64,000 bases of DNA, taken from the NCBI GenBank assembly GCA_023662825.1, contig JAMPIH010000001.1, forward strand, positions 248,001 to 312,000, in the 5' to 3' direction. This document shows positions 2,857 through 63,567 of this stretch, piece after piece (the first letter of the stretch is position 1; each line of letters begins with the position of its first letter). The notes below the pieces were generated by a model, which searched no databases, had not been told where the DNA came from, and saw nothing but the letters and a program-made list of their open reading frames with translations. The position numbers and the translations under genes were made by a program. This DNA is from Bacteroides sp. GTDB taxonomy: Bacteria > Bacteroidota > Bacteroidia > Bacteroidales > P3.

Positions 2857-3684
2857 TTACTGTATATGTGCATAAGCAGCCTGCAGCACACTACGTGTAC
2901 TTGCATTCACCACCGCAACCACCACGGCAAGATCTTGCACCTTCCATTCCCCACTAACGGTAGCTGTATATTGCTTTGTAAAATCGGTTCCTTCCGTGGG
3001 TGTTGCATCCGCTATCTTGTCGCCCCAAACATCATCGCTGACAACGGTTCTCAGAACATGATTATGCACATATTCCTTAAAATGTTGTCCATTGAGACCC
3101 TCCTGCTGCGTTACGATATTGTTTTCCACCAACATCACGATCACATTGATATCTCCGTTTTCAAGATAATCCTTTTTAAAATTACCGTTCACATTTACCT
3201 GCACACTCGAACCGCTCACCTTGACCGAAGCCGCCAGATTTACGTAATCGGAGGTTGTATCGTCAAACACTTCCTTAATCGCACCGCTCCACGATTGCCA
3301 ATTCAACTTTCCCCCACGGTTAACCAAACCTGTGGGAAGGCTGTTTATCTGAAATGCCGTAGCATAAGTCTGCGCGATTTCCGTACGCAAATCAGGATCA
3401 TCGTCTATCGGAAGTGTTGAACTAACCATCCCCTTGGGATGCATCTCGACAACCACCAACTTGTTGCCGTAAGCCGCCTGCAAGGTCTTGATTTCTTCGG
3501 CCGCCTCCGGACAGTTAACACATCTTACGCCAGTATAGTCTTCCAACAACACGCACCGATTGCTCTTTACCTCAACAACGCCTTGGTCTATCAAGCGATT
3601 GCCGTCCTTAATCTTGTCGCAGGAAATAAAACCGGCCAACAAGCCTACCAAAACCAAACCGCCTATATACTTTATCGTTTTCAT
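2857..3684 (-). CDS. Omp28-like outer-membrane lipoprotein with thioredoxin fold
   Basis: A 275-residue lipoprotein whose lipobox-like AGFISC puts the lipidated Cys near residue 22. The segment LEDYTGVRCVNCPEA carries a CVNC pair in the thioredoxin-fold position, and the following VVEMHPKG is typical of the Omp28 family. This suggests a redox or scaffold role in the envelope. Its neighbours are a TlpA-like thioredoxin and DUF6029, a gene order I know from other Bacteroidota. Known Omp28 proteins are surface antigens of unclear biochemical role. The start at 3684 gives a normal signal peptide and lies 17 bases after the DUF6029 stop. Confidence 0.8.
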   Translation of the reverse strand: MKTIKYIGGLVLVGLLAGFISCDKIKDGNRLIDQGVVEVKSNRCVLLEDYTGVRCVNCPEAAEEIKTLQAAYGNKLVVVEMHPKGMVSSTLPIDDDPDLRTEIAQTYATAFQINSLPTGLVNRGGKLNWQSWSGAIKEVFDDTTSDYVNLAASVKVSGSSVQVNVNGNFKKDYLENGDINVIVMLVENNIVTQQEGLNGQHFKEYVHNHVLRTVVSDDVWGDKIADATPTEGTDFTKQYTATVSGEWKVQDLAVVVAVVNASTRSVLQAAYAHIQ

Positions 3685-3701
3685 GAATGCTTTTTTTTAA
3701 A

Positions 3702-5411
3702 TTAGAACGAAGAACTCATGGTAAGCATCACCCCGTTCGAGGCCGGCATTTCGCGGCATACCCCGCCCGCACACATGATACCCTTGCGGATTTTACCATA
3801 CGAAAGCGAGATACGGGTGGCATCGTGGATATAGCCCGCCGACACGTAGTAGTAGTGCAGACGCATATCCTTGTCGTTGTTGCCCACGTTCCACTGGTCG
3901 GAAACCGACACGAACCAATTGGGAGCGAAAGTATATTCCAAAGTTCCCATCAGCCAATCCTGCTCTATCTGCTTGGTGTGCAGGTATTGCAGTTCCAGAC
4001 GCAGGGCGTGTTTCTTAAGGAACATATAGGTAAAGTCACCCACCACGGTGTGGATATACGCCTTGGGTTCGCCGTGCCCTTCCACCACTTCCTGATTGTA
4101 GCGTTCGAACATATACATCAAGGTCATCTTGAAGTTCTTGTTGAACTTGTGGGCGATTTCCAAGTTGGCGTCAATAAAATACACCTCATCGGCATTCATG
4201 TGGAACATCTTGGTCTTGTATCCGTATGTTCCCGGATCAGGCGTCAATGCACCCGGCGCACTAGTTATATCGGTTCTTTCGGGAGCGAAAGCCACGCTGG
4301 CGTTCACCTTTAAGTCAGTCCCGTATTTGCCGCCCAAGGCCGTTCCGCGCTTAAACTTATATTGCACGTCGGCCTGAAACGCCACCTCACCCAGCGACTG
4401 GCAGGCATAGGGATAAAGCGAGGCCAGACTATAGGCATGCTGGCGGGTCAGTGCCGGCATATAGTTGATAAGGCCGAAATTGCCCTGTTCGGTACGGTCG
4501 GCACGGTAACCCATATTGTCCACGCTCTTGGCCTGCAACAATATACCGAAACCACGCGTGGAGTAACCGGCATTCAACAACAACGCCTGACCGGGACGGA
4601 AGATATAGCCGTTTTCACCCGAAGGGTCATTGGCTTTATAAACATATTCACCACCGATTGTAAAACCATTGCTCTCCACATTCAGACGGGCAGCCGCCGA
4701 ACCCACGTTCTTGGGCAGACCTATTTTATACTGATGCATGCCGTCGTCCTGCTGCTGCATCACCATAATAGTCTGGTCGTCCTGGTATTTGGAAACGAAG
4801 CTACCGCCCAAGGTAATGCGCGTGCCCCAGTCCTGCATGGGCTTGATAAAGTCGTTGAAGGCCAGATCCAAGTCCACACCGCGAATCAATCCCACATGAT
4901 CCCAGAAGTGGCGCTGGGTTCCCACCAAACCTTTAATCGTAATACCCTTGGTGGGGGTGATAATGGCGCGAACCCCGCTGATGGCGTTGTCGAGGCCCAG
5001 GTTCCAATCTTGATAGGAACGCAGGATCATGCCCGAACCGAACTGTTCGTAGAACGAACCGGCGGTAACGTCGATGATGTCGCCGCTGAAGCGGGCAAAG
5101 TAATAGGGAACGCCCCAGCCGTCCAATTGTTCATCATAACCCAGCATCGGCTTGAAGTAGCCCTCGAAACGCGCACCCAACGAGAACTTGCCGTTGGTGT
5201 ACTGCAGATAGGCGAAACTGTTGCTTCTGAATTTTTCGGGTACTTCGGGAGCCCCGATCAGGGAGTCTTTGAAGTACATCTGGGCATCCAGCTGGATGTT
5301 CCCCGACAAGGTTCCGCGAGCCATGACCTCCTCGAACTTGCTTTGCGCGGAAGCCGCCGCACAAAAGGCAAGGCTGGCGAGAACAGCGGTAAATAGTCTT
5401 TTTTTCATCAC
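3702..5411 (-). CDS. DUF6029 family outer-membrane protein
   Basis: A 569-residue protein with a clear signal peptide (MMKKRLFTAVLASLAFCAAASAQ). The body is rich in alternating aromatic/polar strands and ends in a phenylalanine (MLTMSSSF), as expected for an outer-membrane beta-barrel. The segment ARFSGDIIDVTAGSFYEQFGSG is what I associate with DUF6029. Its role is unknown. Its constant company of a TlpA-like and an Omp28-like protein hints at envelope redox or cargo handling, which is inference. The start ATG-ATG-AAA is well placed, and the gap to the upstream gene is 112 bases. Confidence 0.8.
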   Translation of the reverse strand: MMKKRLFTAVLASLAFCAAASAQSKFEEVMARGTLSGNIQLDAQMYFKDSLIGAPEVPEKFRSNSFAYLQYTNGKFSLGARFEGYFKPMLGYDEQLDGWGVPYYFARFSGDIIDVTAGSFYEQFGSGMILRSYQDWNLGLDNAISGVRAIITPTKGITIKGLVGTQRHFWDHVGLIRGVDLDLAFNDFIKPMQDWGTRITLGGSFVSKYQDDQTIMVMQQQDDGMHQYKIGLPKNVGSAAARLNVESNGFTIGGEYVYKANDPSGENGYIFRPGQALLLNAGYSTRGFGILLQAKSVDNMGYRADRTEQGNFGLINYMPALTRQHAYSLASLYPYACQSLGEVAFQADVQYKFKRGTALGGKYGTDLKVNASVAFAPERTDITSAPGALTPDPGTYGYKTKMFHMNADEVYFIDANLEIAHKFNKNFKMTLMYMFERYNQEVVEGHGEPKAYIHTVVGDFTYMFLKKHALRLELQYLHTKQIEQDWLMGTLEYTFAPNWFVSVSDQWNVGNNDKDMRLHYYYVSAGYIHDATRISLSYGKIRKGIMCAGGVCREMPASNGVMLTMSSSF

Positions 5412-31266: not shown

Positions 31267-32346
31267 CTACCGCACCGAAAACTTTTCCGTAAGCACCCCG
31301 CAGGGAGTCTTTACGCGGGCAAGGTAGATACCCGAAGGCATCCACGACACGTTGTAGCGGAACGAGGTTTGGTTATCCAATGTAGCGGCGTACAGAACAC
31401 GCCCGTTTACGTCCAGTATCTCCACCTTCTGGAGGTTGCAGCCCGTGGTGGTGAGCGTTATCGTTTCGCCGGCGGGATTGGGGTAAATCTTTATGCCAAT
31501 ATCTGCTTTGCCCGTTTCATTCGCCGTTTCGCCACAGTTGCCGTCCGTAAGATAAGTCTTGCCATCTGCAAAAAAGCAACGGAGTCTGCATTTTCCCCAC
31601 TCGGGATATAATCCCTGAACCTCTCCGAAAAAACCTCCCATAGACCCTATACCCTCTATGATGTACTCTTGATGCCAACCTGGGAAATGCCAGTATGAAT
31701 CCTCTTCCCCATTATCCGTCTTTCTTTCGGTAAGCGGTTGTGCAGCCTGCCGTTTCAGCATTTTACCTCCCATACTTACCGAATCAATGGCGGTTATTCG
31801 ATAGGCCATGAACCGAAAACTGTCGGATGGGTCGCGATATAGTTTCCATCGTTGATACGGGTCAAAACCCGGATTGGGAGTGAATGCTTCGGTATGGACC
31901 CAAACGGTATCGCCCGGTTTGGCCGATAAATCCAACAGCAAAAAGAAATCCTCGACAGCCACATTGTAGTAGAACAATTTTTCCCCTTCCGGATAGACAT
32001 ATTCATAGCTCGTTTCATACGAGCCGTCGCAAGACTCTATCTTGAGCCTTTTGCAAACTCGTTCACCCAACAAGGTATCGCCCGCCACAGACATGCGGAT
32101 GCACCCCACCCCGCTTCCCATCCCGTCGTCGGCAATGCTATAGCACCACTTCGAACCCTCGGCAAACCAAGGTGACTCGTTGGCTTCCTGTGCCTGGAGA
32201 GCAGAAATTCCGCCCCAAGACAAGAAGAAAAACAACAGCAAAAGACGTTTTGTATTCAAGGTCTTAGTTTTTAAGGTTAAACTGTATTTAATTAAATTAA
32301 TGTGTTCAATGGATGTATTCGCTTTCATAGTTGTTTCGATTAACAT
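31267..32346 (-). CDS. Secreted protein with T9SS type A sorting domain
   Basis: About 350 residues. The body (SPWFAEGSKWCYSIADDGMGSGVG and so on) matches nothing I recognise. The C-terminal 75 residues are a T9SS sorting domain (IYPNPAGETITL, ILDVNGRVLYAA, MPSGIYLARV). Its last ~210 bases are nearly identical to those of the gene at 33306-34520. The signal peptide core is RLLLLFFFLSWGGISALQAQ. The ATGs at 32346 and 32328 give an unusually long n-region, so a non-ATG start nearer the core is possible. Confidence 0.8.
   Translation of the reverse strand: MLIETTMKANTSIEHINLIKYSLTLKTKTLNTKRLLLLFFFLSWGGISALQAQEANESPWFAEGSKWCYSIADDGMGSGVGCIRMSVAGDTLLGERVCKRLKIESCDGSYETSYEYVYPEGEKLFYYNVAVEDFFLLLDLSAKPGDTVWVHTEAFTPNPGFDPYQRWKLYRDPSDSFRFMAYRITAIDSVSMGGKMLKRQAAQPLTERKTDNGEEDSYWHFPGWHQEYIIEGIGSMGGFFGEVQGLYPEWGKCRLRCFFADGKTYLTDGNCGETANETGKADIGIKIYPNPAGETITLTTTGCNLQKVEILDVNGRVLYAATLDNQTSFRYNVSWMPSGIYLARVKTPCGVLTEKFSVR
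31273..31482 (-). repeat. Near-identical sorting-domain segment, copy 1
   Basis: By hand count about 201 of 210 bases are identical to 33312-33521. Similarity stops abruptly at the start of the sorting domain. The last two codons differ. Confidence 0.9.
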
Positions 32347-32359
32347 CTAGCAATTATGA

Positions 32360-33220
32360 TTACCACACGTTTTTACCGATATAAATTTTTCCACTTCCAC
32401 TACCGGGAATTTTGAATGAACGGGTGCGGAGTCCCCGATCGAATGTGGTGAACTTGAAATCCACTTGCAATGAATCTCCAGACGATACCACTTCCGCCTC
32501 ATAGCCTACATTTTTGGGGCAGATACATGTTGCAAACATGCTGTCCGGCGCATAGTTCTCGGTCTCTTCGATTAAAAGTTGCCCGCCATTCTGTTTCACG
32601 GAAATATCCACTACCGTTTCGTGACAGTTAAGTATCATGCCCCGATGTTCGAATACGGCCTTTCCGTCTCCCGTAAACCGAAACCACAAATATTCCTCTC
32701 CAGCCACATTTACCGAGGCTATTCTATTTAAACACGAACTAACCCCCATCGTCGGCATATAATCTCCGTCTTCAGCCTCCTGTTCAAAAGGCATTTCAAC
32801 AAAGCGGACTTCCCTTTCAGTACGCTCCATACCTATAATGCAATAAGCTTGGTCGTAAATGCCAGTTTGCGGTTGATAGTTCCGATGCACTGATACGTTC
32901 ACAAAAGAACCGTCGTCTATCATCGATGCCACCTCTATTTCATACACGGGATGGGTACGGGTCGTATCAAAAAGGGCTATAACCTGCTGACAGGTAAAAT
33001 CGGGAATAGGAATATCGCACGAGATATTGCCAATCATCCGCATATACGAGCCTTCTTCCCTTATCAAAAAATAGCCTGGTAACTGTCCGTAACTTCCATC
33101 CGTGGAGCCCTTGCAAAGTTCGGAATATGCAAGCTTCGTATCTTCTTGTCCACATGAAAACATAAAAACGCTCATCAGGCAAGCCAATACGAAAAAAGGA
33201 ATCAAACCAGTGTTTTTCAT
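32360..33220 (-). CDS. Lipoprotein of unknown function
   Basis: A 286-residue lipoprotein: signal MKNTGLIPFFVLACLMSVFMFSC with lipobox MFSC. The mature part is Cys-rich (about nine cysteines, e.g. NISCDIPIPDFTC and FATCIC) and predicted beta-rich. No family recognised. It sits between two T9SS cargo genes on the same strand, 14 bases upstream of the first, and may be part of one surface-protein transcript. There are no catalytic motifs to see. Confidence 0.75.
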   Translation of the reverse strand: MKNTGLIPFFVLACLMSVFMFSCGQEDTKLAYSELCKGSTDGSYGQLPGYFLIREEGSYMRMIGNISCDIPIPDFTCQQVIALFDTTRTHPVYEIEVASMIDDGSFVNVSVHRNYQPQTGIYDQAYCIIGMERTEREVRFVEMPFEQEAEDGDYMPTMGVSSCLNRIASVNVAGEEYLWFRFTGDGKAVFEHRGMILNCHETVVDISVKQNGGQLLIEETENYAPDSMFATCICPKNVGYEAEVVSSGDSLQVDFKFTTFDRGLRTRSFKIPGSGSGKIYIGKNVW

Positions 33221-33258
33221 TCTAACCTCCCTTTATTTATTCAATTACAGCCTTGACA

Positions 33259-33290
33259 GGGATGCAGAGTTCAAATGCGCTCCGCATCCC
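33259..33290 (-). terminator. Hairpin between secreted-protein genes
   Basis: GGGATGC and GCATCCC form a 7-bp stem with an 18-base loop after the stop of the 33306-34520 gene. There is no T run, so termination is uncertain. Confidence 0.3.
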
Positions 33291-33305
33291 CCTTGGCTCT
33301 CCACG

Positions 33306-34520
33306 CTATTTCACCGAAAACTTTTCCGTAAACACTCCGCAGGGAGTCTTTACGCGGGCGAGATAGATACCCGAAGGCATCCACGACACGTTGTAGCGGA
33401 ACGAGGTTTGATTATCCAATGTGGCGGCATACAGAACACGCCCGTTTACGTCCAGTATCTCCACCTTCTGGAGGTTGCAGCCCGTGGCGGTGAGCGTTAT
33501 CGTTTCGCCGGCGGGGTTGGGGCTTAGGATTAACTCCGCTTTTGGGTGCTTTTCGGTTGGGGCGGCACCTACTTTCCGGATGTCTGTAACAAGCATTTCA
33601 GAATACGGATATCCCTTTAAACTATAGAAGTGTTCCACAAAACCGTTCATCACCTCAATACTATCTCCTTCCATGTAATCCACGCCTTGAAAGTGAAAAG
33701 GGAAGCCATCCACCGCCCATCCACTAAATGGTACTGTATCCATGTTATTGCTGAGAATGTGTACGCCATCATCCATCGCTACTGCCAATGCTTGATAACA
33801 ACAATCAAATTCGGGGAAAATCAACGCGGGCGTTTCGACAATCACCAATTTCCCTCTTCCGGAAATGTAATAATGATCATCTCCGGAATAACAACGGCCT
33901 TTCCCATGCATGCTCCATCCATCAATACAGAGCAGGGTTTCAAATATTTCAGAAGGAAGGCCTGATTTATGCCACGCTATGCCATGCAAGGCGGAACCAA
34001 TTCCGGTCAACCACATATCCATAACTTGATGGACGGTATCATAAACTTTCAAATAATGAGATTGACCAAATGGAAATGGAGCAATAGTGTCTCCGACCTC
34101 CAATACCCGAAATACTGGATTTTTGAGATTGTCCGTTTCTTCCACCCAATCCATCATCAGAACATCGTTCGCTTTCAAGGAAAAATCGAAAAGAACATGT
34201 TCCCGTTGACCGGTATAATCATAGACATAGACCCGAACGCTGTCTTCCCGTAGTGCATAGCCAGCCAAAGCCTCGTTTTGTTTATCGCCATCCTCTCGCC
34301 AAAAGATTTTCTTATAACTATTATTTCCAATGGCCGTGTCTCCCATAACAAAATATTGGTTGGTTCCGTTCCAATTTCCATCTATAACGGTATTTTCCCA
34401 ATATAACGACCATAATTTGAAAGGTTCAGTTTCGGGTACTACCTCGGGGTTCGCCCATGCGTTTAGCGATAATAGGTAAAGGCATAGTATGATTATTGGT
34501 CTTGCTTTCATGGTTTTCAT
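33306..34520 (-). CDS. Secreted protein with T9SS type A sorting domain
   Basis: A 404-residue protein with a signal peptide (MKTMKARPIIILCLYLLSLNAWA). The body carries no known domain; short similarities of style (KIFWREDGDK, RVLEVGDTIAPF) resemble the 31267 gene only weakly. The last 75 residues are a T9SS sorting domain that is almost the same in protein and DNA as that of the 31267 gene. Surface display is therefore likely; function unknown. ATGs at 34520 and 34511 are both plausible starts. Confidence 0.82.
   Translation of the reverse strand: MKTMKARPIIILCLYLLSLNAWANPEVVPETEPFKLWSLYWENTVIDGNWNGTNQYFVMGDTAIGNNSYKKIFWREDGDKQNEALAGYALREDSVRVYVYDYTGQREHVLFDFSLKANDVLMMDWVEETDNLKNPVFRVLEVGDTIAPFPFGQSHYLKVYDTVHQVMDMWLTGIGSALHGIAWHKSGLPSEIFETLLCIDGWSMHGKGRCYSGDDHYYISGRGKLVIVETPALIFPEFDCCYQALAVAMDDGVHILSNNMDTVPFSGWAVDGFPFHFQGVDYMEGDSIEVMNGFVEHFYSLKGYPYSEMLVTDIRKVGAAPTEKHPKAELILSPNPAGETITLTATGCNLQKVEILDVNGRVLYAATLDNQTSFRYNVSWMPSGIYLARVKTPCGVFTEKFSVK
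33312..33521 (-). repeat. Near-identical sorting-domain segment, copy 2
   Basis: Partner of 31273-31482 (about 201/210 identical). The upstream coding bodies are not detectably similar at the DNA level. Confidence 0.9.
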
Positions 34521-43115: not shown

Positions 43116-43847
43116 ATGATACTCCGCACCCAAGACATCGTAAAGATTTACAAGCAACGCACCGTGGTTGACCACGTTTCGATAGAAGTGAAGCAAGGCG
43201 AAATCGTTGGCTTGCTGGGTCCCAACGGCGCAGGAAAGACCACTTCTTTCTATATTATGGTGGGGCTGATCAAGGCGCTTTCGGGAAAAGTTTTCTTGGA
43301 CGACACCGACATCACCCGCCTGCCCATGTACAAGAGGGCGCAGCTGGGTGTGGGCTACCTGGCGCAGGAAGCCTCCGTGTTCAGGCACATGAGCGTGGAA
43401 GACAACATCGCCTCCATCCTGGAATTTATCGAGAAAGACCCCGCCGTGCGCAGGCAGCGCCTGGAAGAACTCTTGGGTGAATTCGGCATCGAGCACGTGC
43501 GCAAGACCAAGGGCATCAGCCTTTCGGGCGGCGAGAGAAGGCGTACCGAGATTGCCCGCGCGCTGGCCGCCAACCCCAAGTTCATCCTGTTGGACGAACC
43601 CTTCGCCGGCATCGACCCCCTGGCGGTGGAAGACATCAAGAAAATCGTGCTGCAGTTAAAGCAGAAGAACATCGGTATCCTGATTACCGACCACAACGCG
43701 CAGGAAACCCTTTCAATCACCGACCGCTCTTACCTGCTCTACAGCGGAAAGATCCTCAAGTCCGGTTCCTCCAGAGAACTGGCCAACGACCCAGAAGTAC
43801 GCGAAAAATATCTCGGCAAGGATTTCGAATTGAAAGAAATCCGTTAA
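43116..43847 (+). CDS. lptB: LPS export ABC transporter ATPase LptB
   Basis: A 243-residue ATPase that powers LPS extraction by LptFG. Walker A GPNGAGKTT lies at 35-43, signature LSGGE at 136-140, Walker B FILLDEP at 156-162, and the switch His in TDHNAQE. The typical LptB start MILRTQDIVKIYK supports the ATG at 43116 rather than an earlier frame. It functionally pairs with the OstA-like gene at 34857. The C-terminus (GKDFELKEIR) is short, as in other Bacteroidota. Confidence 0.95.
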   Translation: MILRTQDIVKIYKQRTVVDHVSIEVKQGEIVGLLGPNGAGKTTSFYIMVGLIKALSGKVFLDDTDITRLPMYKRAQLGVGYLAQEASVFRHMSVEDNIASILEFIEKDPAVRRQRLEELLGEFGIEHVRKTKGISLSGGERRRTEIARALAANPKFILLDEPFAGIDPLAVEDIKKIVLQLKQKNIGILITDHNAQETLSITDRSYLLYSGKILKSGSSRELANDPEVREKYLGKDFELKEIR

Positions 43848-43886: not shown

Positions 43887-43921
43887 TCGGTTTTTAGAAC
43901 TTGCAGCCGAGGGTAATCGTG
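43887..43921 (-). repeat. 35-bp direct repeat, left copy (pseudogene tail)
   Basis: Identical in all 35 bases to 45297-45331. Read on the minus strand it encodes the end of an OmpP1-like protein (TITLGCKF-stop). Upstream of it the frame continues as VFTKLEFVNTKPRMLFTKPHFC, only loosely like the intact gene, until an in-frame stop. It looks like the tail of a lost or donor gene. Confidence 0.85.
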
Positions 43922-43950
43922 CAAAAGTGAGGTTTGGTGAAAAGCATCCG

Positions 43951-43993
43951 GGGTTTGGTGTTCACAAATTCCAGTTTCGTGAACACCAAACCC
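43951..43993 (-). terminator. 15-bp perfect inverted repeat downstream of fic
   Basis: GGGTTTGGTGTTCAC (43951-43965) and its exact complement GTGAACACCAAACCC (43979-43993) with a 13-base loop. No T run follows on either strand. It may end the fic transcript or be a protein site; GTGAACACT nearby at about 44013-44021 repeats half of it. Confidence 0.5.
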
Positions 43994-44039
43994 GCTTATC
44001 TGTTCAAAAACATCCAAAAGTGAACACTTATGAACCTTT

Positions 44040-45179
44040 CTAATCGGTAACAGATTCTATGGGTGTAACAGTTTCTTCTTTTGTGTCGGATACATTTAGG
44101 AAAAGGTTCATCAGCGGTATATTCATATAGTAATAAGCTTTCCCGATTTTAGACCTTTCAACCAACCCAGTTTCTAAAAGCGTGTTCAAGTATCTATTGG
44201 CTGTTACTCGACTAACCATTAACTCCTTCTCCAAGAATTCAACCTTTGTATAGGGGTGAAAGAATAGGTTGTTGAGCAGCTCATGCCGATATTGTTTACC
44301 GAATTTAGGACGCAATACGCCCTTGAATTCCACCATTAGTTTTGAGATGCCCTTAACAAGGCGAGTTGTTTCAATGGCCGTCTCTTCAATCCCTTGAAGG
44401 ATAAACAACACCCAAGCCTCCCATTCTGAGGCATTGTTTTCGTTTTTGTCGCGAATAGACTGAATCAGCCGATAATATTCTGCCTTATTATGCGTGATGA
44501 AGCGGCTGAGATACAGAATCGGCAAATCCAGACGATTAGACAACACAAGGTACAATACACAGATAATACGACCCGTACGACCATTTCCATCATAAAAAGG
44601 ATGAATGCTTTCGAATTGATGGTGGATTATCGCCAATTTTATTAACGGGTCAAGGTCTGAGACGCTGTCGTCATTTATAAATTTCTCCAGATTGTCCATC
44701 AAATTAAGGATGGCCTGCTTATCCTGGGGTGGCGTATATACCACTTTGCCATCAGAACGTTTTAATGCTGTACCCGGTACACTTCTGAATCCGGCAGAGT
44801 TATGTTCCAGTATCCCTTGTATTTCCTTAATCACAGAAGAGGTAAGCACTCCCTTTTCTTTAACAAGATGAAATCCATGTTGCAGAGCCTCACGGTAATT
44901 CAGCACTTCTTTGGTGGCGGCATTGATGGCATACTCCGACAATGATGCCGCCGCGCCTTGATACAAGTCGTCCTGCGTGGTAACGATATTCTCGACTTCG
45001 GAACTATCCTTGGCTTCCTGCAGAGTCAAGGTGCTGACAAGAATGTTCTCATTCGGAATAGTCATGGCTACACCTTTCAATTCCGCCAACCTCCGGTTCG
45101 CGTTATTGAGCTGTTTAAGCACCGCCTTTGTTTCCAAATCGTACTTCAAAGGGAGGGTCGGTATGTTATATTGTGTCAT
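44040..45179 (-). CDS. Fic family protein with N-terminal inhibitory helix and winged-helix tail
   Basis: A 379-residue protein. The active loop HPFYDGNGR (193-201) is complete, so AMP transfer (or a related nucleotide transfer) to a hydroxyl side chain is expected. An inhibitory motif S-x3-E-N (Ser59-Asn64, SSEVEN) marks class II, self-inhibited Fic. A Fic_N region precedes the core and a winged-helix follows (KVEFLEKELMVSRVTANRYLNTLLE), suggesting DNA binding or autoregulation. It is more AT-rich than its neighbours and stands alone between 35-bp direct repeats. Acquisition by transfer is likely. No antitoxin gene is adjacent. Confidence 0.9.
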   Translation of the reverse strand: MTQYNIPTLPLKYDLETKAVLKQLNNANRRLAELKGVAMTIPNENILVSTLTLQEAKDSSEVENIVTTQDDLYQGAAASLSEYAINAATKEVLNYREALQHGFHLVKEKGVLTSSVIKEIQGILEHNSAGFRSVPGTALKRSDGKVVYTPPQDKQAILNLMDNLEKFINDDSVSDLDPLIKLAIIHHQFESIHPFYDGNGRTGRIICVLYLVLSNRLDLPILYLSRFITHNKAEYYRLIQSIRDKNENNASEWEAWVLFILQGIEETAIETTRLVKGISKLMVEFKGVLRPKFGKQYRHELLNNLFFHPYTKVEFLEKELMVSRVTANRYLNTLLETGLVERSKIGKAYYYMNIPLMNLFLNVSDTKEETVTPIESVTD

Positions 45180-45218
45180 CTTATCTCAAATTTTGCGGTT
45201 AATTTGGGTTGTTCATGA

Positions 45219-45226
45219 CAAAATTA
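45219..45226 (-). promoter_or_regulatory. -7 box of fic
   Basis: TAATTTTG on the minus strand about 40 bases upstream of the fic ATG at 45179; no good -33 seen. 45227-45296 shows no gene. Confidence 0.45.
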
Positions 45227-45296
45227 AGACACTTTTGTATAGTTTCATCACCCCAAAATATCCAACCAAGCCCTCCCTTTGAAAATCCCCGAAGTA

Positions 45297-45331
45297 TCGG
45301 TTTTTAGAACTTGCAGCCGAGGGTAATCGTG
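45297..45331 (-). repeat. 35-bp direct repeat, right copy
   Basis: The 3' end of the intact OmpP1/FadL-like gene (GCKF and stop) plus 7 bases beyond. Perfect match to 43887-43921, 1,410 bases away. Confidence 0.9.
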
Positions 45332-46806
45332 AAGGTGTATTTGGAGAATCGCAACTTGGCGGGGCTTACCAAGGGAGAGCCGTCTGCATCCAAGAGATAA
45401 TAGAAGTCGTCGATCCGTTTGCCCAGATTCGCCATAAAGCCGAAATCGAGGTTCCAACGTCCCAAGGCCAATCCCAAACCGGCCGTAACCGTGTGGTCCG
45501 ACCAACGGTTCTTCAACAACCCGCTCTTATACGGACAGGACTGCCAGACATAACCGGCACGGAAGCTCACGATGCCGGCCCGCCACTCAGTACCGGCCCT
45601 CAAGACACCCGACAGACGGTAGTTGTCGCGCACGATGGTGCGGATATACTGGTTGTATTCTATATCGTCGTCCACATCCATACGCATCTGGCGGTAGTTG
45701 ATCAACTCTCCCTCTACGGCTATCGCCCCGAAATTCTTAATAAGGAAAGCCGCGCTCAGAATGCCCTTCATCGGCGTGGACAGGCCGTAACGGTCTTCGT
45801 AACTGCTATGTATCGCGTTAGGCAGAACATCGTTGTTCGCCAGAACGTACTGCATGTCGGTCATCAAATCCATATCCGACCTTTCCTTTATCCAGTAATA
45901 GGTGGGCGTATGGAATGCCAAGCCCACACGGAAGAAATGCACCGGTTTGTAGATTAAACCCAGCTTAAGGTTGAGACCCGAACCGCTTACATCCATACGG
46001 TTCCTCACTTCATACGATTTAAAGTTAAACGGAAGGGGTAAACCTTCGGTATTCGATTCTTCGATTACACTTTTTTGGGTATAATTCACTATGGGAACAC
46101 CCAAGGTTACACCGAAAAACAGTTTGTCCGACCAGTTTCCGCCAAAGGAGAACGCCATCTCGGTGATATTGCCCCACTCCTGCAAGATGTGCTTTTGCGT
46201 CAAACCCTTGCCGAGAAAGCTTTCGTAGGTGTAATTCAAGGTGTCCAGATAATCCAACAGCCCCGTTTGATAGGCCAAATTACCGATATGGGCCACATCG
46301 CTGTGCTGTACGGCAAAATCGTAGCCGGCACTGCGGGCGGCCACGTCTTCCATATACGAGGACTGGGGATTGACGGCCTTAGTATAGACATTGTTGTTGA
46401 AATCCTTAATGCGGTTGGCGCCGAAACCCAGATGCAGGTTCCAGAGCCTGCCTTCCTCGCGGTTCCCGTTCTTGATGCAGAAAACCCCGCCGCCCTGCGG
46501 CAGGTGGATGCGTGTCTTATCCAAACTGTTGAGACGGTTGTAGTAGTCCGACTCCGTGTTTTGCGTAACCGTACCCAAGGTGAGGCTTATCTCGTGGCGC
46601 GTGTAGAAACCTATGCCCGCCGGATTGGTGCTGAGCGTGGTGAAGTTGGCGCCCAAGGCCCCGAACGCGCCGCCCATGGCGTTGAAACGCGCCGTTCCCA
46701 CCGGATTGAGCATGGAGTAGCGCAACAGATCGGCATCGTCCTGGGCGGACAAGCCACCGCAAAGGAGCAGTGCGCCGGCTGTAAGTATATGTCTTATTCT
46801 GAACAT
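45304..46806 (-). CDS. OmpP1/FadL-like outer-membrane transport protein
   Basis: About 500 residues with a signal peptide (FRIRHILTAGALLLCGGLSAQ). The N-terminal signature RYSMLNPVGTARFNAMGGAFGALGANFTTLSTNPAGIGFY is diagnostic of the OMPP1/FadL/TodX family, in which the N-terminal hatch plugs a 14-strand barrel for hydrophobic substrates. It ends TITLGCKF. The ATG at 46806 is preferred over 46842 because it starts the signal peptide. Its 3' end is duplicated beyond the fic gene. Confidence 0.88.
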   Translation of the reverse strand: MFRIRHILTAGALLLCGGLSAQDDADLLRYSMLNPVGTARFNAMGGAFGALGANFTTLSTNPAGIGFYTRHEISLTLGTVTQNTESDYYNRLNSLDKTRIHLPQGGGVFCIKNGNREEGRLWNLHLGFGANRIKDFNNNVYTKAVNPQSSYMEDVAARSAGYDFAVQHSDVAHIGNLAYQTGLLDYLDTLNYTYESFLGKGLTQKHILQEWGNITEMAFSFGGNWSDKLFFGVTLGVPIVNYTQKSVIEESNTEGLPLPFNFKSYEVRNRMDVSGSGLNLKLGLIYKPVHFFRVGLAFHTPTYYWIKERSDMDLMTDMQYVLANNDVLPNAIHSSYEDRYGLSTPMKGILSAAFLIKNFGAIAVEGELINYRQMRMDVDDDIEYNQYIRTIVRDNYRLSGVLRAGTEWRAGIVSFRAGYVWQSCPYKSGLLKNRWSDHTVTAGLGLALGRWNLDFGFMANLGKRIDDFYYLLDADGSPLVSPAKLRFSKYTFTITLGCKF

Positions 46807-61019: not shown

Positions 61020-61267
61020 ATGAATGGTAATAAAATAATGATACAATCACAATTGTATCAGACAATTAAGTATATTTGCAAATACTCCCGACAAGAAGAT
61101 ACCGACTACGAGGGAATACGCATAGCCGACATTCCCCGATGGCTGCTTGAATGATTCCCGACAACAGTTATGCAAGCAATGAACGCGGCCTTTCGCCTGA
61201 GGACATGAAGAAGATTTTTCTAATGTCGGGATTCTTTGTGTTTGGGAAACGAGGTGATTTGTATTAA
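61020..61267 (+). other. Two tiny overlapping open frames of uncertain status
   Basis: The first (61020-61154, 44 codons: MNGNKIMIQSQLYQTIKYIC...IRIADIPRWLLE) ends in ATGA, where the second begins (61151-61267, 38 codons: MIPDNSYASNERGLSPEDMK...). The overlap looks like translational coupling or a frameshift in one older gene. No family recognised. The second runs into the conserved promoter of the next gene. They may be a decayed remnant. Confidence 0.25.
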
Positions 61268-61272
61268 TTTTG
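61241..61272 (+). promoter_or_regulatory. Promoter of small lipoprotein 1 (duplicated leader)
   Basis: TTTG (61241-61244), exactly 20 bases, TAATTTTG (61265-61272). The next ~50 bases, including GGGCGGTCGGGATTCGGGTT, recur upstream of the lipoprotein at 63568. Confidence 0.75.
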
Positions 61273-61385
61273 TGGAGGACTTGGTTTCGGGCGCAGGGGG
61301 CGGTCGGGATTCGGGTTTGAAATCACAGCCCGCCCGCAGACGGAAGCCGGCGGGAAAGCGGGTATGAACCTCAAAAAAATAAAAG

Positions 61386-61826
61386 ATGAAGAATTTGAAT
61401 TTATTGACGATTTTGGCGAAACGCGCCTTCTTCGCACTGGCATTGGCGGGCACGGGATTGATGGCGGGATGCGACAAAAAAACTGAAGACCCGTATTCCC
61501 AACCGATAGACCCGGTACAGGTTTTGAAATTTGGTGAATATTTTAAAAATGATTCCATTCAATATGAAAATGTTATGAAATATGCCAACGACCCGCGTAT
61601 CACAACAATAATTTATTTTATGGATTCAATAAACAACAATAATAACTATGGTGGGCATAATACTTCAAATATTTCTTTTATACGCGAATACTTACAGGAA
61701 CGGCTGAACTATACATCCAAAGCAACGGGGAGTGGAACATTTAAGTTTATGGCCGGTGCCGCATCGCCCGAGGACAGTCTGTGGTTCGTGCAAAACGGCT
61801 GGCAAATCAGACCGTATCGAAGATAA
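61386..61826 (+). CDS. Small lipoprotein, paralogue of the one at the right edge
   Basis: A 146-residue lipoprotein: NLLTILAKRAFFALALAGTGLMAGC with lipobox MAGC. The mature part contains a Asn-rich stretch (SINNNNNYGGHN) and ends SPEDSLWFVQNGWQIRPYRR. The edge gene shares the signal (NLLMIWAERVFFALALAGT), the middle (YFMDS.N / MVVESDNN) and the end (DSLWFVQNGW). No known family. It is AT-rich in the middle and has its own promoter and terminator. Confidence 0.75.
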   Translation: MKNLNLLTILAKRAFFALALAGTGLMAGCDKKTEDPYSQPIDPVQVLKFGEYFKNDSIQYENVMKYANDPRITTIIYFMDSINNNNNYGGHNTSNISFIREYLQERLNYTSKATGSGTFKFMAGAASPEDSLWFVQNGWQIRPYRR

Positions 61827-61859
61827 AACGCCGCCCAGGCGATGCCTTCTTTTGCCCTC

Positions 61860-61892
61860 ACGCCCCGCCTCCCGCGGGGCGTTTTTAGTTTT
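61860..61892 (+). terminator. Terminator after small lipoprotein 1
   Basis: ACGCCCCGC, a 5-base loop, GCGGGGCGT, then TTTTTAGTTTT. The 61893-61955 remainder has no gene. Confidence 0.88.
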
Positions 61893-61955
61893 CCAGATTA
61901 CACATCGGCACCCTCTAAAACTCCCCGTGTCCTTGGGGAGGAAGCGAAGTTTCGG

Positions 61956-63275
61956 CTACATATCTTTCATGGAAAGGACCTTGCGGGAAACGGTGTAACC
62001 CTTGAACTGTCCGGTAACCTGCAGGAATTTCGCCACCTTTTCTTCTAATACAGCGGGGTTGTAGCGGTCAGCGTTCCGCTTGATTTCGAAAAAACACGCC
62101 TCCCGGGTCAGTTCGTTTTCGGCAATCAGGTCGATTTCGTTCTCTCCCTTGCGATTCCACCAACCACCTATGCGTGTGTATTTTCCGCTTTCCGCCAGCA
62201 CCTGTCTGAAATACCTTTCCAGCATCAGGCCGCTGAAAGTCTCGTAGTCGCGGTTTACTAAGGTCTTCAAGGCATCGAAGGCCTCTATCTCCAACATGTA
62301 GCCGTATTTGTAGATGAAGCGGAACCAAAACGTAAGGAAGTTGTCTTTCAGCACGTAGCGCATGTTCTTGTTCGAATTCTTCTCGAACAAGGGCTGTTTC
62401 TTCCCTATCAGTTCGTATTCGGTTTCCAGCCGGGTCAGGTAGCCGCCGGTTTCCCGCCCCACGGCGTTTTCTATTTCCGCACGGCTGTTCTTGCCTTGCG
62501 CGATGGCGGAGAGTATCGAGAAATAAATGCCGTATTCCCGCCCGAACTCTTCCACCAGCATAGCCTTGCCCTCTCCTGTAAAAACCGAATCGGGACGGAG
62601 AATCTGACGGATCATCTTAGCCTTGGTGGTGGCGCCGGCATCCATCAACAGCTGCACATACTTGGCCACCCCGCCCGTAAACGAGTAGAGAGCCAGCAGG
62701 TCTTCGGGCGTATAGGTTCCGTTGTGGCTTTTAAGAATCTCTTTCAAGACCGAGGGCGTAAAGGGGCGTATGCTCATAAAACGGGTCTGCCGGTTATACA
62801 GGGGCTCTTTGCCGTCCATAAAGATCCGGCTCATCATGGAATGAACCGAACCGCACACAATCAGGTTGACATGCGCCCGGGTATGATACAGGTCCCAAAG
62901 ACGCTGCATGTCGCCGTACACGGATTTATTCACACGGTAAAACTCCTGGAATTCATCGATAAAAAGCGTAAGCGGATGGGAAACGGACCATTTCAGCAGG
63001 AATTCGAAGACTTCGGCGAAGTTTTGGGCTTTTCCTATCGTGGGCACCCCTAACTTCCCGGAGATTTCCGCCTGATAGGTCTCGCAAAGTTCGCTTTCGG
63101 TCTTCCGGCTCACGAAGAAATAGAGGAAGGGCATGTCTTCGTAGGCCTTCCAAACGAGCGAGGTCTTGCCGATACGCCGCCGCCCCGTAAGGACGGTGAA
63201 CTGGGCCTGCTTTTGCACCTGCTTGCGGATTTCCCGCAACAAACGTATTTCCTGTTTTCTGTCAAAAAATTTCAT
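61956..63275 (-). CDS. AAA ATPase with C-terminal PD-(D/E)XK-like (DUF234) domain
   Basis: A 439-residue protein of the archaeal-type ATPase family common in Bacteroidota. Walker A GRRRIGKT at 31-38, Walker B TLFIDEFQEF at 103-112, sensor region LIVCGSVHSMM. A winged-helix segment (about 255-300) is followed by DUF234 with nuclease-like residues: GENEIDLIAENE (Asp) and ACFFEIKRN (E-x-K). Function is unknown in most cases; mobile or defence roles are suggested by the family's patchy spread. It is flanked by two related lipoprotein genes and by a GTTCCGAAAC repeat just upstream. Confidence 0.88.
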   Translation of the reverse strand: MKFFDRKQEIRLLREIRKQVQKQAQFTVLTGRRRIGKTSLVWKAYEDMPFLYFFVSRKTESELCETYQAEISGKLGVPTIGKAQNFAEVFEFLLKWSVSHPLTLFIDEFQEFYRVNKSVYGDMQRLWDLYHTRAHVNLIVCGSVHSMMSRIFMDGKEPLYNRQTRFMSIRPFTPSVLKEILKSHNGTYTPEDLLALYSFTGGVAKYVQLLMDAGATTKAKMIRQILRPDSVFTGEGKAMLVEEFGREYGIYFSILSAIAQGKNSRAEIENAVGRETGGYLTRLETEYELIGKKQPLFEKNSNKNMRYVLKDNFLTFWFRFIYKYGYMLEIEAFDALKTLVNRDYETFSGLMLERYFRQVLAESGKYTRIGGWWNRKGENEIDLIAENELTREACFFEIKRNADRYNPAVLEEKVAKFLQVTGQFKGYTVSRKVLSMKDM

Positions 63276-63308
63276 AGGCGTGTCTTGTCAATCATTCCGA
63301 AACAACAG

Positions 63309-63343
63309 GTTCCGAAACGGTGAGTTCCGAAATGGTGGTTTCG
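63309..63343. repeat. GTTCCGAAAC-type 35-bp repeat, copy 2
   Basis: GTTCCGAAACGG, TGAGTTCCGAAATGG, TGGTTTCG; a further ATTCCGAAAC precedes it at about 63292. It lies 34 bases upstream of the ATPase start and could be its operator or a mobile repeat. 63344-63474 shows no gene. Confidence 0.75.
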
Positions 63344-63474
63344 GAACTGCAAATGTAGTGAAAAAAACATAAAAACGCATCCCACAATTACGAAATCAGT
63401 GATTTCGCAATCATCTCCGGCTTGTCCATGCCGCAGAAGCATGAAGTTGTTTCCCAAATTCAATCTTTTTAGTT

Positions 63475-63504
63475 TTTGAAATCGAGTGATTTGTATTAAT
63501 TTTG
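63475..63504 (+). promoter_or_regulatory. Promoter of small lipoprotein 2 (duplicated leader)
   Basis: TTTG (63475-63478), 18 bases, TAATTTTG (63497-63504). From GTGATTTGTATTAATTTTG on, it follows the 61265 promoter region closely for about 80 bases. Confidence 0.7.
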
Positions 63505-63567
63505 TGGATAACCTGGTTTTGGGCGCATGGGGCGGTCGGGATTCGGGTTGAAATCAAACAAAAGACA

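Follow-up and report, generated by a model that had tools for sequence, protein, structure and literature searches.

We found that a fic gene has been inserted at the 3′ end of a resident outer-membrane protein gene (omp) in a Bacteroides sp. chromosome, and that the 3′ tail of the resident gene has been duplicated. The insert is flanked by perfect 35-bp direct repeats and encodes no recombination enzyme of its own. We consider it likely that a fragment carrying fic was joined to the chromosome by non-site-specific recombination at two points about 37 bp apart, with the target between them being copied. The locus lies in the window, which is the whole stretch of 64,000 nucleotides that we analysed, and we compared it with related genomes, of which G010 is the nearest same-genus genome found. 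Its features are as follows.

43116..43847, + strand: ABC ATPase gene, lptB-type, 243 aa, by family match; borders the empty site on its other side
43887..43921: copy of the duplicated target distal to omp, identical over 35 bp; homology with the empty site of G010 reaches 43923
43922..45296: the insert, bounded by the two 35-bp copies; 1,375 bp, about 42% GC, absent from G010
43951..43993: inverted repeat beyond the 3′ end of fic, with 18-nt arms of 94% complementarity around a 7-nt loop (GTGTTCAC..GTGAACAC), operator- or hairpin-like
44040..45179, − strand: fic, predicted SoFic-type protein adenylyltransferase, 379 aa, with Fic_N, Fic and SoFic-like C-terminal domains
45297..45331: copy of the duplicated target on the gene side, made up of the final 28 nt of omp, stop codon included, and 7 nt more
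45304..46806, − strand: resident omp gene, 500 aa, intact, identified as an ORF with orthologues in relatives

The insert duplicates the 3′ tail of an outer-membrane protein gene

The original prediction, made from the window sequence, was of perfect 35-bp direct repeats around an AT-rich fic gene. A repeat search of the window bore this out and placed the two identical 35-nt copies 1,410 bp apart, a spacing at which chance identity over 35 bases is negligible. In the 2.27-Mb genome, the 35-mer is represented by these two copies only, with up to 3 mismatches allowed. GC content is about 0.38-0.48 in the insert, in comparison to about 0.50-0.62 for most of the flanks, and the mean of 0.42 compares with 0.53 over the 400 kb of the same contig that we examined. 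The fic gene is the sole long ORF of the insert with a family match. No integrase, transposase or recombinase ORF is present among the insert's ORFs, and both the ORF list and the family matches agree with the earlier statement that no integrase is encoded inside.

The gene-side copy proved, as had been proposed, to be the 3′ end of the resident gene; it covers the last residues, TITLGCKF, and the stop codon, plus 7 nt. For the distal copy, the same gene tail was recovered, but the loose similarity reported beyond it is not aligned homology, and the empty-site alignment ends there. We could not confirm the name OmpP1/FadL for the resident gene, which has no Pfam match and only weak matches, below cut-off, to the NCBIfam families PorV and BamG.

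In G010, the lptB-type flank is followed by a short spacer with a single copy of the repeat and then by the omp gene, and this empty site resolved both joints to the base. At the left joint, homology to G010 extends 2 bases beyond the 35-bp copy, through CGTGCA (43923), and at the right joint it begins exactly at TCGG (45297). Positions 43922-43923, at the edge of the insert, may be part of the duplicated target. From this alignment, the original target probably measured 37 bp, and base 36 of the gene-side copy would have been substituted afterwards. Both window copies carry T where G010 reads C, which is expected if one local sequence was duplicated; an att site of the same species would look alike.

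In G007 and G003 as well, the lptB-type gene adjoins omp without fic. An omp match was present in 11 of the 12 other genus genomes searched and was single in ten of them, with G007 having an extra weak match of 60 residues. Two omp genes at this position occur in none of the relatives examined, and fic is not conserved at the site in the genomes searched, being absent there from G010, G007 and G003. The G010 empty site and the intact omp ORF together support the proposed insertion at the gene's 3′ end with the resident gene left whole. No other cargo was seen at the omp site in the relatives read (one genome per species).

Sequence features of Fic and its neighbouring hairpins

All three domains of the fic product exceed their Pfam cut-offs. 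Among solved structures, those nearest to the fic product are 9vjc (E 3.5e-78) and SoFic entries, for example 3eqx. SoFic-type Fic proteins (PDB 3eqx, 3zcn; 9vjc) share the same three domains over nearly the whole length, and the catalytic motif is present; the window protein differs from them in scoring 353.6 bits against the NCBIfam SoFic equivalog, below its cut-off of 550. By these matches it is a SoFic relative, and we do not call it an orthologue. Two motifs were read from the translated sequence, HPFYDGNGRTGR as the catalytic motif and SSEVEN as a putative inhibitory one. From these motifs, we infer an auto-inhibited (class II) adenylyltransferase, with a C-terminal domain of predicted DNA-binding type. 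The fic gene would be cargo and not a mobility enzyme.

In addition to the inverted repeat listed above, a second palindrome is found 3′ of fic at 44001-44026 (TGTTCA..TGAACA). Many other fic genes adjoin similar hairpins of differing sequence (e.g. L064, L086, L157), and such hairpins are perhaps operators of the C-terminal domain. We considered the 43951-43993 hairpin as an integron attC and rejected this for the window given the 35-bp duplication, which insertion of a single integron cassette would not produce. Some distant fic genes do lie amid integron-like repeat arrays (L084, L088, L148). A literature search for Fic together with integron cassettes returned Fic and toxin-antitoxin papers, and the term 'integron cassette' was absent from the excerpts returned.

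The fic gene groups with a gene from another lineage

A tree of 33 sequences pairs the window fic with the fic gene of a Ca. Amulumruptor genome as its sister (support 100/100) and places the fic genes from the same genus as the window in a separate clade (support 100/99). The two sister genes are 86% identical over the match, and the best omp match in that Ca. Amulumruptor genome is 29% identical to the window omp. On this phylogenetic evidence, fic is foreign and has moved between lineages. Same-genus fic genes of SoFic type are located elsewhere, adjoining prfB in the three loci with ORFs read. When we compared the window with the islet carrying the sister fic (L073), the DNA was alike only over the fic coding region, and no conserved element ends were found. 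Plasmid and phage records yielded no vehicle, all fic relatives in them being below 60% identity, and a donor sequence for the insert was not found.

Two further long duplications distinguish the genome pair

Self-comparison of 400 kb of the window's contig revealed another islet with a single gene (G000:C11:94569-95984), which encodes an AAA_14/DUF4143 ATPase.

L247:14512-16041 = G000:C11:94512-96041, outside the window: AAA_14/DUF4143 islet including its repeats, which are perfect 57-bp copies of the recX 3′ tail

Exact empty sites for this islet are present in G010 and G007, and the insertion has altered the end of RecX from SLIRFSE to SLIQKYL. Reciprocally, G010 carries a 6.3-kb insert (G010:C22:246645-252969, in L323) at which 105 bp from the 3′ tail of a gene are duplicated, and the window genome has the empty site. 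The readable C-terminus of that gene resembles, by eye, an SdhB/FrdB-type iron-sulfur subunit.

Insertions were listed without choosing cargo by aligning the 400-kb stretch with the collinear G010 contig. Long target duplications were judged genuine in 3 of the 18 clean cases examined, namely fic (37 bp), the ATPase (57 bp) and the G010 insert (105 bp). In the remaining clean cases, either a dispersed repeat or poor matching accounts for the overlap, or there is a gap of 0-82 bases, an approximate value taken from BLAST match ends. Of the overlaps at three other G010 insertions, those of 49 and 54 bp were set aside because a dispersed repeat (TTATTCGTATCTTTG and relatives) is shared by both, and the one of 24 bp was set aside for its poor match. 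Empty sites are confirmed for the omp islet, the recX islet and the G010 insert only. The three duplications for which an empty site is confirmed are all located at gene 3′ ends, and this counts against element-less joining, since an integrase would also favour 3′ ends.

DUF4143-family ATPases are strikingly abundant in the 2.27-Mb window genome, with at least 17 matches (17 of 23 candidates scored); a literature search on their horizontal transfer returned nothing on topic. Other repeats were observed on this contig. At 31273-33522 of the window, 211-bp repeats (96%) form the C-terminal ends of two neighbouring genes and are probably paralogous sorting-type tails, not an islet. At 61233-63556, two similar small lipoprotein-like genes have near-identical upstream regions, with an ATPase_2/DUF234 gene between them (about 61956-63275). 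Outside the window, G000:C11:197591-201622 holds a CRISPR-like array with the repeat GTTTCAATTCTAACAAGTTCGATTCAAAC.

Repeated gene ends at other fic loci vary in sequence and length

At other fic loci, the ends of resident genes are repeated on the far side. The repeated sequences are unrelated and, with comparable islets included, measure 35-464 bp.

Endonuclease I gene, 3′ end: 59 bp, identical
fhs, 3′ end: 79 bp, 92%
TonB-receptor-like gene, 3′ end: 53 bp, 87%
PBP4-like gene, 3′ end: 44 bp, 91%
tRNA-Thr, 3′ end, at a distant fic locus: 51 bp, 88%
porX, 5′ end: 464 bp, 97%; encloses a UvrD-like helicase split into two frames, and fic
Region upstream of parE (5′ end), L111:2057-3647: about 170 bp, 79%; proteobacterial fic directly upstream of parE
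Open frame of 937 aa, 5′ end: 45 bp, 82%

For the endonuclease I and fhs islets, the syntenic neighbour was not found in one relative and the gene was absent from the other. Topoisomerases are known Fic targets, and the position of fic upstream of parE may not be accidental. At L154, a 55-bp repeat occurs three times around fic and a further short segment (1265-1361, 3104-3161, 3672-3767), and it looks as if insertions had piled up at one place.

We then counted flanking repeats by script, using one-kilobase flanks and E below 1e-5. Repeats were found at 17 of 106 fic loci, 7 of 26 HipA loci, 5 of 29 ORF6N loci and 11 of 28 DUF4143 loci, counts that include integron-like arrays, operator repeats and dispersed repeats and so are upper bounds for target duplications. 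Core omp control loci showed none (0/26; pooled accessory vs core p=0.003). The HipA and ORF6N cases likewise include resident gene ends, and the DUF4143 figure is a script count alone.

Untargeted joining best fits the scars

For the route by which the joints formed, we infer the following. A short foreign Bacteroidales DNA fragment with a SoFic-type fic would have joined the chromosome at the omp 3′ end, at two points ~37 bp apart. The 37 bp between the joints would have been copied, so that one copy completes the omp gene and the other lies beyond the insert. Illegitimate recombination during DNA repair or uptake could have made the joints, either by filling in a staggered break or by template switching; homology-assisted illegitimate recombination is a further possible reaction. 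Purifying selection would then explain why the duplications are seen where resident genes end, since the gene remains complete there.

Site-specific integration at the 3′ end of the gene, with the 35 bp as att core and a small non-autonomous islet mobilised in trans by another element's integrase, is in our estimation unlikely. The length is within the usual range of att cores, and the locus resembles integrase-driven islands at tRNA or gene 3′ ends in its clean 3′-end insertion, direct repeats and restored, intact gene; the repeat of a tRNA-Thr 3′ end at one distant fic locus also speaks for such an event. However, the window islet differs from such islands in lacking an integrase, and no reuse of the site by other cargo was seen in the relatives read (one genome per species). 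The 35-mer occurs just twice in the genome, the window and sister fic have no islet ends in common, and the sequences duplicated at comparable islets are unrelated, differ in length (up to 464 bp) and occur at gene starts too. The analogy with genomic islands at tRNA 3′ ends, drawn in the original prediction, is not supported. With a fixed att core, one sequence of one length would be expected each time; the scars differ in both and are also found at gene starts. Such a pattern would be expected from joining at two points that are tens to hundreds of bases apart, with survival only of insertions that leave one complete copy of a resident gene. We give an equally low probability to a Bacteroidales mobility mechanism that acts in trans and inserts single-gene addiction or defence islets (Fic, HipA, AAA/DUF4143, ORF6N) preferentially at gene ends, duplicating tens to hundreds of target bases.

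Slightly less probable again is a homology-assisted insertion, in which DNA already bearing the omp tail beside fic, such as a circle from another strain, entered by a single crossover in the tail. Repeats of at least 35 bp are long enough for homologous pairing, and the T common to both window copies (C in G010) points to one closely related source sequence. This reading nevertheless requires an earlier event that put fic beside the omp tail, an arrangement found in no genome but the window's. Decay of a tandem omp duplicate, with fic inserted later between the copies, would explain the second gene tail but is very improbable, given the single copy in G010 and left-joint homology that ends exactly at 43923 with no omp sequence beyond. 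Least probable is an assembly artefact or strain mixture: the genome is in 24 contigs and the arrangement was found in one genome only, but the contig measures 438 kb, both flanks are collinear with G010, and a second, independent islet bears this type of scar, its empty sites being exact.

Discussion

Bacterial gene gain is mostly credited to plasmids, phages, transposons and integrases. The scar described here looks like a common, untargeted route of gene gain rather than a dedicated mobile island. Insertion of this type has already been described: insertion with long target duplication was named from restriction-modification genes, with Helicobacter pylori as the first case (Nobusato et al. 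2000 Gene 259:99; Furuta et al. 2010 NAR 38:2428; via PMC1643837, PMC3031569, PMC3874152). According to these sources, the published duplications are direct, variable and on the order of 100 bp, and arise without a transposon. The window likewise presents an insertion against an empty allele in a close relative (G010), and the insert is free of IS elements, transposases and integrases. Its duplication of 35-37 bp is likewise far longer than usual transposon duplications, and lengths are likewise variable, at 37, 57 and 105 bp within one genome pair and 44-464 bp at other fic loci, where empty sites are not confirmed. The published cases carry restriction-modification genes, in contrast to the fic and AAA_14/DUF4143 ATPase genes found here, in Bacteroidales. 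Restriction-modification cargo is an association in the literature and not a structural feature of the insertion. The present case adds Fic as cargo, in Bacteroidales, along with the ATPase example from the same genome.

Homology-facilitated illegitimate recombination, as summarised in PMC2884548, combines one homology-anchored joint with one illegitimate joint and replaces a resident segment. It is alike in that foreign DNA is gained without mobile-element enzymes, but differs from the present case, in which the target is duplicated and no donor sequence offering a homologous anchor was found.

A repeated gene tail beside foreign DNA is, by itself, no proof of an integrase att site. In conclusion, two closely related gut genomes show, to the base, the states before and after gene gains whose only trace is a long target duplication, and this genome pair is material with which to test element-less insertion and why addiction- and defence-type genes are often its cargo.
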